A stretch of 64,000 bases of DNA from Halorhabdus rudnickae. Lineage in GTDB: Archaea > Halobacteriota > Halobacteria > Halobacteriales > Haloarculaceae. The position numbers and the translations under genes are program-made. This document shows, piece by piece, positions 2,754 through 60,672 of this stretch; the first letter of the stretch is position 1; each line of letters starts with the position of its first letter. The notes under the pieces were generated by a model. That model worked only from the letters and a program-made list of their open reading frames with translations. It searched no databases and was not told the origin of the DNA. The stretch covers positions 1,674,001 through 1,738,000 of the forward strand of contig NZ_CAAHFB010000001.1 of the NCBI RefSeq assembly GCF_900880625.1, given 5' to 3'.

Positions 2754-3800
2754 TCAGTCACTCGCCGCCGACTGTCCGAGTCCCGGAATCGAGACGACCG
2801 TCTCGAAGCGAGACATCGCCAGCGCCGTCGTCAACACGAGCGCGAGATAGAACAGGCCGACGACGACGTAGATATCCGTATACTGGAACGTGTCCGAGGC
2901 GATGTCCCTCGCGCGCTGGAACAGCTCGGGGACGGTGATGAACGTCGCGAGCGAGGAGTACTTGATCAGGTAGATAAACTCGTTGGTCCAGCTCGGGATC
3001 GCGAGTCGCAGTCCCTGTGGGAGGACGACGTGACGAATCGCCTGCCGTTTCGAGAGGCCGACCGCGCGCGCGGCGGTCATCTGCCCGGCGTCGACCGACT
3101 CCAGGGCCGATCGAATATACTCCGCCTGGTAGGCCGAGGAGTTGATCGTGAACCCGATGACGGCGACGGCCGCCGCTGCCCGGGGGATCGGCGGCTCGCC
3201 AGTGAATCCGACCCAGCGGGCGACGTCCGTAAGCGGGAGCGCGAAGTAGACGAAAAACAGCTGGGCGAGCAACGGCGTCCCGCGGATGAGTTCGGTATAC
3301 GTCAGGGCAATCGCCCGCAAGAGCGTGCCACCGTAGGTCCGGGCTACGGCAACCGGGATCGCAACGACCAGCCCGAACAGGATCGACAGGATCGTCAGGT
3401 AGACCGTGACGAACGCACCCTCGGCGAATGCGGGGGCGATCGTCGTCGCGAACCCGGCCAGATCAGCGAGCCAGACCGCCCAATCGAGCAGGACGCTGGC
3501 CGGACCGAGCGGGTCCGCGACGCTCGCGATCGCGTTGGCAACTGCCTCGAAGGGGGCCGCCGGGACCCACCCCTCGCGTGCCTGGACAGCAACCTCCGAG
3601 CGGACGAGATCCGGAAATCCGAGCGCCGTGACCACCGCGTCGAGGACGGCGTTGTGATAGGCCCAGCGCGCGAACAGCCATACCCAAAAGACGGTGCCGA
3701 TCGCCCCGAGGGCGAGGCGGCGGCGAGCCGGTAACTCCTCGACGAGGGACCCGCGGTCGTCGGCGGGATCGGTCACCGTTTGCGCTGGTCCGTCGGTCAT
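2754..3800 (-). CDS. Polar amino acid ABC transporter permease
   Basis: A 348-residue inner-membrane permease of the HisM/GlnP family. The C-terminal half holds the typical membrane segments and an EAA-type loop (SVDAGQMTAARAVGLSKRQ) that contacts the ATPase. It is longer than the usual 220-250 residues: the N-terminal 110 residues carry one extra membrane segment and a soluble stretch. The start overlaps the stop of the upstream ATPase gene by 4 bp. Gene order is substrate-binding protein, permease, ATPase, permease. The substrate is an amino acid, but which one cannot be read from the sequence. Confidence 0.88.
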   Translation of the reverse strand: MTDGPAQTVTDPADDRGSLVEELPARRRLALGAIGTVFWVWLFARWAYHNAVLDAVVTALGFPDLVRSEVAVQAREGWVPAAPFEAVANAIASVADPLGPASVLLDWAVWLADLAGFATTIAPAFAEGAFVTVYLTILSILFGLVVAIPVAVARTYGGTLLRAIALTYTELIRGTPLLAQLFFVYFALPLTDVARWVGFTGEPPIPRAAAAVAVIGFTINSSAYQAEYIRSALESVDAGQMTAARAVGLSKRQAIRHVVLPQGLRLAIPSWTNEFIYLIKYSSLATFITVPELFQRARDIASDTFQYTDIYVVVGLFYLALVLTTALAMSRFETVVSIPGLGQSAASD

Positions 3801-42961: not shown

Positions 42962-43053
42962 AAGGTGAGTGGGTCCGGGCGGATTTGAACCTCGGTCGCT
43001 CCCGTTCGTTCGCTATCGCTCACTCACCTTCCGCTCCCTGCTTCCAATCCGCC
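42962..43053 (-). repeat. tRNA-Val 3'-end copy B with inverted segments
   Basis: Positions 42968-42991 repeat the last 24 nt of the region that ends tRNA-Val. AAGGTGAGTG (42962-42971) pairs with CACTCACCTT (43021-43030), and GGCGGATT (42978-42985) with AATCCGCC (43046-43053). The two pairings cross instead of nesting. The copy lies 133 bp from copy A. Confidence 0.85.
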
Positions 43054-43100
43054 GGCCGCTCCGCATACGCGGCGCTCGCAAGTGAGCGCCGCGAAAACTC

Positions 43101-43185
43101 AGTGGGTCCGGGCGGATTTGAACCACGCCCTGACGTGCTCGCTTCGCTGCGCGCGTCACGTCTGCTTCAAATCCTCGTCACCCAC
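43101..43185 (-). repeat. tRNA-Val 3'-end copy A inside an 84-nt palindrome
   Basis: Positions 43101-43126 are identical to 43233-43258, the T arm and 3' acceptor strand of tRNA-Val. The copy forms one arm of a nested palindrome: GTGGGT (43102-43107) pairs with ACCCAC (43180-43185), and GGATTTGAA (43114-43122) with TTCAAATCC (43166-43174). It lies 132 bp from the gene's own 3' end. Confidence 0.88.
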
Positions 43186-43234
43186 ACAGACGGCGCTGGC
43201 TCCTCGTTTCACTCGTCGCAGTCGCCGTCAGAAG

Positions 43235-43309
43235 TGGGTCCGGGCGGATTTGAACCACCGACCTCGGCCTTGTAAAGGCCACGTCATAACCAACCTAGAC
43301 CACGGACCC
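43235..43309 (-). tRNA. tRNA-Val (anticodon UAC)
   Basis: A 75-nt cloverleaf on the minus strand. The acceptor stem is GGGTCCG/CGGACCC with discriminator A; the anticodon stem TGGCC/GGCCG carries loop TTTACAA, so the anticodon is UAC (valine). The T arm has loop TTCAAAT. No intron is present and CCA is not encoded. Its 3' end is copied twice downstream. Confidence 0.93.
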
Positions 43310-59316: not shown

Positions 59317-59448
59317 GTGTGCGTCTGTTCGCGATTTCCTCGCTTGTGGGTGTCCCAATCGACAGTATCGATCGAGTATCGAAGTCCGCCCCCCACTATT
59401 CGGAATCTCACAGCGCCCGTTCGTCTGGCCCAGCCGTGGCCGAGGGGA

Positions 59449-59454
59449 TTAAAT
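59449..59454 (+). promoter_or_regulatory. TATA-like element before vapB
   Basis: TTAAAT is centred about 25 nt before ATG 59476, the usual archaeal spacing. It favours that start among the three in-frame ATGs at 59464, 59476 and 59488. The CATG-rich stretch between box and start (59462-59491) could be the antitoxin operator. Confidence 0.4.
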
Positions 59455-59475
59455 GCATTCCGCATGTACATACTC

Positions 59476-59739
59476 ATGAAAATATTCATGTCTACGGATG
59501 CCGATGCGAAAGTCGTCCAGACGCGACTCACGGAACAAGAGTACGAACAGCTTCGCCGGGTGGCCGACCAGGAGGGGCTCCCGCTGAAAGAGGTACTCCG
59601 GCGAGCGGCGATCGAGTTCTCGAAGCGACAGGAGAAACACGACCCTGAAGATCCGTTCTTTGCCGAGCAAGTGCCGGAGGTGGCCGACGAGGAGTCGTCG
59701 CTCACCGCAACGAAAACCGACGAGTATCTCTACGAATGA
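59476..59739 (+). CDS. vapB: VapB-type antitoxin, ribbon-helix-helix
   Basis: An 87-residue protein. VVQTRLTEQEYEQLRRVADQEG and LPLKEVLRRAAIEF form a ribbon-helix-helix DNA-binding motif; the acidic C-terminus should wrap the toxin. Its stop overlaps the toxin start (ATGA), the standard coupling of such pairs. The first gene normally represses the operon by binding its own promoter. Confidence 0.82.
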   Translation: MKIFMSTDADAKVVQTRLTEQEYEQLRRVADQEGLPLKEVLRRAAIEFSKRQEKHDPEDPFFAEQVPEVADEESSLTATKTDEYLYE

Positions 59740-60194
59740 CCGATCTGGAGCGCTTTCGACCGTCGTCGGGTGGTCCGACCGCGCTGTTTCTCGATACGAG
59801 TGGGTTGTTTGCCTACTTTCACCCGCAGGCTGCCGAACACGAAGAAGCGACTGCGTTTCTCCAGGCAGTCGGATCGAACGAGGTTCCCTATCGACCGTTG
59901 TACACCAGTACGTACGTCGTCGACGAACTGGCCACGTTGCTGCTCTCGAAAGGGACACACGAACTCGCGACGGTGGCACTCGATCGGACGCTTGATTCCG
60001 AACACGTCTCCGTGATCGCCGAAGACGAGGACGAGTTCGCCGCTGCCCGGCAGGCGTTCGAACGGTACGACGACCACGAGATCTCGTTCACCGACCAACT
60101 CAGCGGCGTCCAGATGCGAGAGCGCGACGTTGGACACGTCTTCGCCTACGACGGTGACTTCCGGACGCTCGGATTCGAACAGCTGCCGCGGTGA
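59736..60194 (+). CDS. vapC: VapC-type PIN-domain ribonuclease toxin
   Basis: A 152-residue PIN protein. The acidic catalytic residues are Asp20 (LFLDTSGLF), Glu64 (VVDELATLL), Asp120 (FTDQLSGVQM) and Asp138 or Asp141 (AYDGDF). All are present, so the toxin should be active. It directly follows the antitoxin and lies next to the tRNA-Gly repeat region. VapC toxins cut tRNA or rRNA. Confidence 0.85.
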   Translation: MTDLERFRPSSGGPTALFLDTSGLFAYFHPQAAEHEEATAFLQAVGSNEVPYRPLYTSTYVVDELATLLLSKGTHELATVALDRTLDSEHVSVIAEDEDEFAAARQAFERYDDHEISFTDQLSGVQMRERDVGHVFAYDGDFRTLGFEQLPR

Positions 60195-60601
60195 TTGCGC
60201 GGAGACGAAACTCCGCACCGTATGGATTTGGAGAAGATGCGACGGCCGAGAGTTCACCAAGCGAAGCGAGGTGAACGCCGATCGACGGCGTCGATCGGAA
60301 TTTGAACTCGATGGCGAGACGATCCTGCTCGCTCCCGCTGGTCGCTGCGCGGGCTGCAACTGGCGTGTTCAAATCTCTATTGACGCATTCATCCTCGCGC
60401 TGAAGCGAGCGACACGCAGAGCGGTCGCTCGCTGGTTTTGCGCTCGGTAGAAGTGCGACGGCCGAGATTTGAACAGGTGCCAGACGGTCGGCCTCACTCC
60501 GTTCGGCCGCTGCGACTGGCGTGCTCAAATCTCGGTTGCGCACACAACAAACTCCGTGATAGCGCGGAGATGAAACTCCGCGCAGTTGGAGTTTGGAGAA
60601 G
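60195..60601. repeat. tRNA-Gly 3'-end copies downstream of the gene
   Basis: Copy A at 60450-60474 is identical to 60598-60622, which spans the end of tRNA-Gly, 148 bp away. It is one arm of a 91-nt palindrome: CCGAGATTTGA (60462-60472) pairs with TCAAATCTCGG (60525-60535), and GTGCG (60453-60457) with CGCAC (60539-60543). A looser copy B begins near 60231. The sequence before copy B (GCGCGGAG, then AAACTCCGC, then TTGGAGAAG) also matches that before the gene's own end, so the repeat extends past the tRNA. No gene is present. Confidence 0.85.
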
Positions 60602-60672
60602 TGCGACGGCCGAGATTTGAACTCGGGTTAGGACCGTGGCAGGGTCCTGTGATACCACTACACCACCGTCGC
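60602..60672 (-). tRNA. tRNA-Gly (anticodon GCC)
   Basis: A 71-nt cloverleaf on the minus strand. Acceptor GCGACGG/CCGTCGC with discriminator A, anticodon stem GGACC/GGTCC with loop CTGCCAC, so the anticodon is GCC (glycine). The T arm is CCGAG-TTCAAAT-CTCGG. No intron and no encoded CCA. Confidence 0.94.

Follow-up and report, generated by a model that had tools for sequence, protein, structure and literature searches.

Structured repeat units carrying tRNA 3′-end copies form arrays downstream of tRNA genes across the haloarchaea

Results

Short repeat units that end in a copy of the 3′ end of the preceding tRNA gene occur across the haloarchaea and are restricted to tRNA genes or to arrays displaced from them. 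Two arrays are in the window, that is, the whole 64,000-nucleotide stretch of the Halorhabdus rudnickae genome (contig NZ_CAAHFB010000001.1) that was analyzed here. One is headed by tRNA-Gly(GCC), which is on the minus strand, so that downstream means lower coordinates. This array comprised the following features (window 60191-60672).

60601-60672, minus strand: tRNA-Gly(GCC), the array head (ARAGORN; RF00005, 64.1 bits)
60621-60602, minus strand: positions 54-73 of tRNA-Gly(GCC), TTCAAATCTCGGCCGTCGCA
60545-60600, minus strand: unit 1, hairpin 1 region, GCGCGGAG...CTCCGCGC (repeat comparison, unit alignment)
60523-60535, minus strand: unit 1, inverted T-arm box, CCGAGATTTGAGC (repeat comparison, unit alignment)
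60475-60522, minus strand: unit 1, hairpin 2, GCCAGTCGCAG...CCGACCGTCTGGC (fold z -5.1; covariance model match G000:C1:1734463-1734534 for the unit, 67.4 bits)
60454-60473, minus strand: copy 1 of tRNA-Gly positions 54-73 (20/20 identical)
60378-60453, minus strand: unit 2, hairpin 1 region (unit alignment)
60367-60377, minus strand: unit 2, inverted box, GAGATTTGAAC (repeat comparison, unit alignment)
60307-60366, minus strand: unit 2, hairpin 2 (covariance model match G000:C1:1734296-1734378 for the unit, 48 bits)
60287-60306, minus strand: copy 2 of the tRNA-Gly 3′ end, decayed (unit alignment)
about 60238-60256, minus strand: third copy of the tRNA-Gly 3′ end, a remnant, ACTCTCGGCCGTCGCA
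60191-60237, minus strand: hairpin-1-like sequence, second copy, past the terminal remnant (repeat comparison)

An earlier note on this DNA had reported that the end of tRNA-Gly recurs 148 bp downstream, and the recurrence was exact over a 26-nt stretch at the 3′ end of the gene. The palindrome that it described at this copy is real and has the tRNA copy (60473-60454) as its right arm, but it is imperfect. Its left arm, CCGAGATTTGAGC at 60535-60523, repeats the T-loop and T-stem of the tRNA in inverted orientation, and the region folds at -38.7 kcal/mol (z = -5.1 versus shuffles). The looser copy that had been seen farther out was located at 60306-60287, with the remnant at about 60256-60238 in addition, and the flanking hairpin sequence was indeed repeated, with 83% identity between 60191-60236 and 60556-60601 over 46 nt. 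Beyond what the earlier note had recognized, the left palindrome arm is the inverted T-arm, the copy begins at position 54 in the T-loop and extends no farther than the discriminator base, and the hairpins are conserved modules. Directly past the array, a short open reading frame and a PIN-domain-like one (window 59317-60194) may, as read from the sequence, be a VapBC pair.

The second array head in the window, tRNA-Val(TAC), was correctly singled out earlier as having the same arrangement as tRNA-Gly. Its two 3′-end copies (43122-43103 and 42989-42970) each have an inverted partner (window 42970-43309).

43234-43309, minus strand: tRNA-Val(TAC), the array head (ARAGORN)
43254-43235, minus strand: positions 54-73 of tRNA-Val(TAC)
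43165-43175, minus strand: unit 1, inverted box, AGGATTTGAAG (unit alignment)
43103-43122, minus strand: copy 1 of tRNA-Val positions 54-73 (20/20; covariance model match, 68.5 bits)
43041-43055, minus strand: unit 2, inverted box, CCGGCGGATTGGAAG (unit alignment)
42970-42989, minus strand: copy 2 of tRNA-Val positions 54-73 (20/20; covariance model match, 40.3 bits)

Frequency of the copies within the genome and among congeners

The genome of H. rudnickae encodes a ribosomal protein L3 that is 93% identical to its Halorhabdus salina counterpart. It has 42 tRNA genes (RF00005), and 20 of these had a copy of their own 3′ end, counted where at least 18 of the tRNA's own last 25 nt matched within 600 nt downstream. 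In upstream flanks, an own 3′-end copy was found at none of the 42 tRNAs, and copies of the tRNA 5′ end and of the tRNA middle were likewise found at 0/42 each. A control with the 3′ ends of other tRNAs gave 5% at ≥18/25 and 1/1214 at ≥22/25. Because the best matches of own 3′ ends to shuffled downstream DNA reached 13-17/25, versus 22-25/25 in genuine copies, a chance origin of the copies is excluded. The scan of all tRNA genes with shuffled controls that the earlier note proposed found own-end copies at about half of them, and clearly at tRNA genes other than the two initially noticed.

Units numbered from one to four per tRNA gene, counts that vary with the threshold applied (18/25 or 76% identity), and the arrays at two loci (L088 and L089) were simple tandem duplications. 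Three congeners had copies at 16, 24, and 24 tRNAs, in part at different tRNAs, and the four congeners disagreed on the presence of a copy at most tRNAs. At the orthologous tRNA-Gly(GCC), a copy was scored at 24 of 60 haloarchaeal loci, which is an upper bound because one locus (L105) owes its match to a second, complete tRNA gene. The 30 best tRNA-Gly copies averaged 21.3/22 matches to the end of their own species' tRNA, against 11.3 to the differing ends of other species.

Unit anatomy and covariation

Read in tRNA sense, the aligned units consist of hairpin 1, an inverted T-arm box, hairpin 2, and tRNA positions 54-73, in that order. The unit body is about 75-170 bp long; bodies diverge, vary in length, and have no genes inside. 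Hairpin 1 often begins with TTCTG and has a stem, tandem G-A mismatches, and at times a longer inner hairpin. The box is typically GGATTTGAA, hairpin 2 is typically AGTCGCAG...GACCGTCT with a variable tip, and the copy that follows it extends from TTCAAATCC through the discriminator base. An unusual T-loop was usually tracked by the box, which reads GAATTGAA in Lys(TTT) and Gly(TCC), GATTCGAA in Gln(TTG) and Arg(TCT), and GACTCGA in Asn; Leu(GAG) was an exception. Past the T-loop, boxes matched 2.7 of 5 T-stem bases of their own tRNA, compared with 1.8 for other tRNAs.

The helices formed by box, hairpin 2, and copy had 85.8% of cells paired and two-sided changes at 12 of 18 pairs, with a covariation score of 0.249, versus 0.104 in shuffles and at most 0.107 in slid structures. 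Hairpin 1 covaried as well, the evidence being confined to its inner pairs and two-sided changes since the alignment was preselected for at least 4/5 stem pairs; an inner pair outside this selection criterion was G-C in 16 cases, A-U in 12, and G-U in 1. Both hairpins had homologs throughout the class, and their internal loops were conserved. Folds with tandem G-A mismatches and a GNA loop appeared in the tRNA-sense strand only. Hairpin tips of this kind, GAGCGAAGCGAG / GAACGAAGTGAG, were observed in four genomes (G000, the genome studied here, G050, G089, and G079; for example, at 60475-60522).

Copy edges and unit turnover

The edges of the copied segment were determined in 82 well-preserved copies. 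Past the discriminator base, identity was 0.52, 0.55, 0.39, and 0.33 at successive bases, so that by the third base it was no better than chance. The copies have no CCA after the discriminator base, and for this reason we rejected an origin as retro-copies of mature tRNA fragments. On the left, identity to the tRNA context was lost no more than three bases before G53. The copied segment, 54-73, is what an element crossing at the T-loop must carry in order to restore the tRNA.

For tRNA-Thr(GGT), position 53 is G in the intact copies of G050 and G089, which nonetheless share U61 with the tRNA; this places the left junction between 53 and 61. In this same tRNA, three congeners (L301, L330, and L360) have A53-U61 in place of the usual G53-C61; the box and most 3′-end copies follow the new base 61, and the terminal copy of L360 retains the old one.

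Comparisons between genomes, all of which are between species, revealed whole-unit differences among congeners at Arg-CCG, Asn-GTT, Arg-GCG, Thr-GGT, and Gly-GCC, with the sequences breaking at the T-loop. In the case of Arg-CCG, the tRNA of G089 is followed by a complete additional unit, behind which comes a unit 99% identical to the sole unit of G050, and the flanks beyond the units are 97% identical (97-99% overall). Of the two G089 boxes, the older fits the T-stem CCCCTC, which is also seen in G000, whereas the newer fits CCCTTC. Each such difference of one unit could be a gain, or a loss in the other genome via direct-repeat recombination.

Nonterminal copies were more similar to their tRNA (96.8% identity) than terminal ones (91.2%, P = 0.0003), and in 17 orthologous unit pairs the bodies differed by 16% and the copies by 5.6%. 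CRISPR-like growth always at the tRNA-proximal end was rejected: it fits the clean cases, but unshared units over all pairs were proximal in 25 cases and distal in 25. We also rejected a recent spread of the hairpin module between tRNA genes. High-identity pairs exist, yet units at different tRNAs were no more similar within a genome than between congeners, and with no within-genome excess no recent spread is seen.

Distribution across Halobacteria

A covariance model of the unit core, built on this genus and on tRNA-Gly loci and hence possibly missing distant units, gave 39 matches to E 0.5 in this genome, 30 of them below 0.005. It matched in 115 of 116 Halobacteria genomes, representing 45 of 45 genera, and in 0 of 124 sampled non-haloarchaeal genomes of the phylum. 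The number of matches per haloarchaeal genome was 0-40 (median 17), with G099 and G102 at the low end, and Haloarcula rara gave 41 matches. The sole negative haloarchaeon, G014, had a G+C content of 43% over the 20 kb that was sampled, and the sensitivity of the model may be lower there. This distribution, together with the copies at 20 of 42 tRNAs and in three congeners, supports the proposal of the earlier note that the arrangement reflects either a general process or a repeat type not described before.

Among 60 fetched model matches, 57 were directly downstream of a tRNA gene, two were in arrays displaced from their tRNA, and one was in a contig of a metagenome-assembled genome (MAG) with assembly gaps. 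At about 219.7 kb of contig C6 of this genome (C6:217500-222000), a tRNA-Val 3′ end and two units adjoin a tyrosine integrase (PF13495) with no tRNA gene, an array apparently displaced by an island. A tRNA-Arg(TCG) unit at C1:397067 and the corresponding tRNA gene are 19 kb apart, suggesting that an island was inserted between the tRNA and the array. Two clear island junctions in this genome had other repeat edges, the repeat including the T-stem in one and the T-loop being absent from the other. In the MAG QS_4_66_20 (L071), about 290 bp of other DNA precede the right half of hairpin 2 and the 3′-end copy downstream of tRNA-Gly (3200-3270); an open frame in this insert had no Pfam match.

Rfam 15 gave no match to the units, the only matches in the arrays being to tRNA. 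Blast comparison of the units with plasmids and phages gave no credible match, and a loose DNA pattern tried on viral contigs was dropped, its 95 loci being at chance level. No haloarchaeal description of such units was found in the open literature, the coverage of which excludes subscription papers.

Comparison with known systems

The closest known counterpart is the tandem repeat of E. coli tyrT/tyrV, with its rtT (RttR) RNA (Rfam RtT). At tyrV/rttR of E. coli K-12 (NC_000913, 1285800-1288200), the tRNA 3′ end recurs in three 19-nt copies at 178-bp intervals, and each 178-bp unit contains an inverted T-arm box, GGGGAAGGAT, the complement of ATCCTTCCCC, as well as hairpins. Direct tRNA 3′-end copies, an inverted T-arm box in each unit, and hairpins are therefore common to both; to our knowledge, the box is not a recognized feature of rtT. 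The E. coli repeat is confined to one locus, and its 178-bp units are near-identical, with a copy that begins about 4 nt farther into the tRNA and contains CCA. In contrast, the haloarchaeal units are unrelated in sequence, have no RtT match in Rfam, and have bodies that diverge and vary in length; they are found class-wide, in the genus studied behind roughly every second tRNA gene, and differ from one another. The haloarchaeal arrays are a separate class-wide family with an anatomy like that of the E. coli locus.

Other systems share fewer of these traits. Attachment sites of tyrosine integrases include a T-loop sublocation, where the repeat likewise covers the tRNA from T-loop to 3′ end and the tRNA is restored. 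Unlike tRNA-integrated elements, the haloarchaeal units are without integrase or cargo, measure about 75-170 bp, occur in up to four repeats, and have conserved hairpins. Integron attC sites have the consensus GTTRRRY / RYYYAAC. The units resemble attC in forming an imperfect hairpin that has an outer stem with the crossover, an internal loop, a mismatched inner stem, and a variable tip, and they resemble cassette arrays in being a direct-repeat array. However, they have no gene cassettes, the array heads are tRNA genes rather than intI and attI, there is one array per tRNA gene, and the core is GTTCAAAT rather than GTTRRRY. As in CRISPR arrays, repeats are identical near the array head and decayed at the end, but here the DNA between the repeats is structured and homologous from unit to unit, the tRNA end itself serves as the repeat, and unshared units showed no preference for the head. 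Finally, unlike MITE or REP elements, the units are not dispersed to unrelated sites, as nearly all fetched matches sit directly behind a tRNA gene.

Possible origins of the units

From the exact 54-73 segment and the covarying hairpin with a crossover in its outer stem, we infer site-specific recombination at the T-loop. Our tentative reading, held at somewhat short of an even chance, is that each unit is a cassette without genes, inserted and removed through site-specific recombination in the tRNA T-loop. The crossover would fall within TTCAAAT (54-60) of the T-loop. An incoming unit would supply its own tRNA 3′ end, leaving the tRNA whole, and the displaced old 3′ end would persist as the downstream copy. 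The folded site of recombination, comparable to integron attC, would be the hairpin that the inverted box forms with hairpin 2 and the copied T-loop. Repeats near the tRNA would continue to take part and stay identical, while terminal repeats would drop out and decay. Against the cassette model, islands here have the other repeat edge and push arrays away, and the misfit of the core to GTTRRRY argues against an attC-like site. No integrase gene or cargo was seen within any intact unit, and among 116 genomes those with more units did not have more tyrosine integrases (Spearman -0.15, P = 0.10). A tyrosine recombinase encoded by an open frame of about 210 codons is present in many haloarchaeal genomes; it is perhaps the catalytic domain alone and a possible candidate enzyme. 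The broader proposal, that haloarchaea have a genome-wide integron-like system in which a putative host recombinase acts on attC-like gene-less hairpin cassettes at nearly any tRNA T-loop and repeatedly replaces tRNA 3′ ends, we regard as rather unlikely.

A structured trailer RNA, transcribed with the tRNA and kept by selection for tRNA 3′ processing, folding, termination, or a released small RNA, would also explain the covariation of both hairpins and the presence of strand-specific motifs in the tRNA-sense strand only, with unit number shifting through ordinary recombination between direct copies. Some arrays separate the tRNA from a T-rich stretch that resembles its terminator, the copies of orthologous units change less than the bodies, and the E. 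coli analog is reported to release an RNA (PMC4986893, citing Bosl and Kersten 1991). Yet presence is patchy, both at tRNA-Gly(GCC), with its upper bound of 24/60 loci, and among the four congeners, and a trailer RNA does not by itself account for the copy starting at 54 or for the acceptor strand, which is outside the hairpin. We consider this explanation a real contender, albeit somewhat unlikely.

Less probable, in our view, is a mutational by-product arising without a dedicated enzyme, in which template switching or slippage at the palindromic tRNA 3′ end makes the copies and quasi-palindrome correction fits the box. The match of boxes to their own tRNA past the T-loop (2.7 versus 1.8 of 5 T-stem bases), the separate fits of the old and new boxes at Arg-CCG in G089, and the simple tandem duplications in L088 and L089 are all in keeping with such an origin, but random template switching would not be expected to yield class-wide homologous hairpins with conserved internal loops, exact edges at 54 and 73, or a model without matches outside Halobacteria in the phylum. 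It is very unlikely that the units are scars of ordinary tRNA-targeting islands, that is, attR remnants following internal deletion. Tyrosine integrases do target archaeal tRNA genes (PMC8371274), an integrase gene adjoins the displaced Val array, and in the 326-nt variant of L071 the copies are separated by foreign-looking DNA. However, the two clear island junctions have the other repeat edge and are without box and hairpin 2, cargo-bearing units were not found, and a shared covarying anatomy at many tRNAs is unexpected from such scars.

Significance

Nearly every sampled haloarchaeal genome has this repeat family, which has no Rfam entry and is absent from the open literature searched, and tRNA 3′ ends are duplicated routinely throughout an archaeal class. 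The common anatomy of 3′-end copies and inverted T-arm box links the arrays to the long-puzzling tyrT repeats of E. coli. For annotation there is a risk that the copies are mistaken for att sites or pseudo-tRNAs. The arrays seem to be a class-wide system built by recombination at the tRNA T-loop. Some haloarchaea are genetically tractable, making either main reading testable: if units are exchanged at the T-loop, they would represent a new kind of site-specific recombination and a route of tRNA gene evolution, and if they are RNA elements, they would add a new layer of tRNA 3′ processing.
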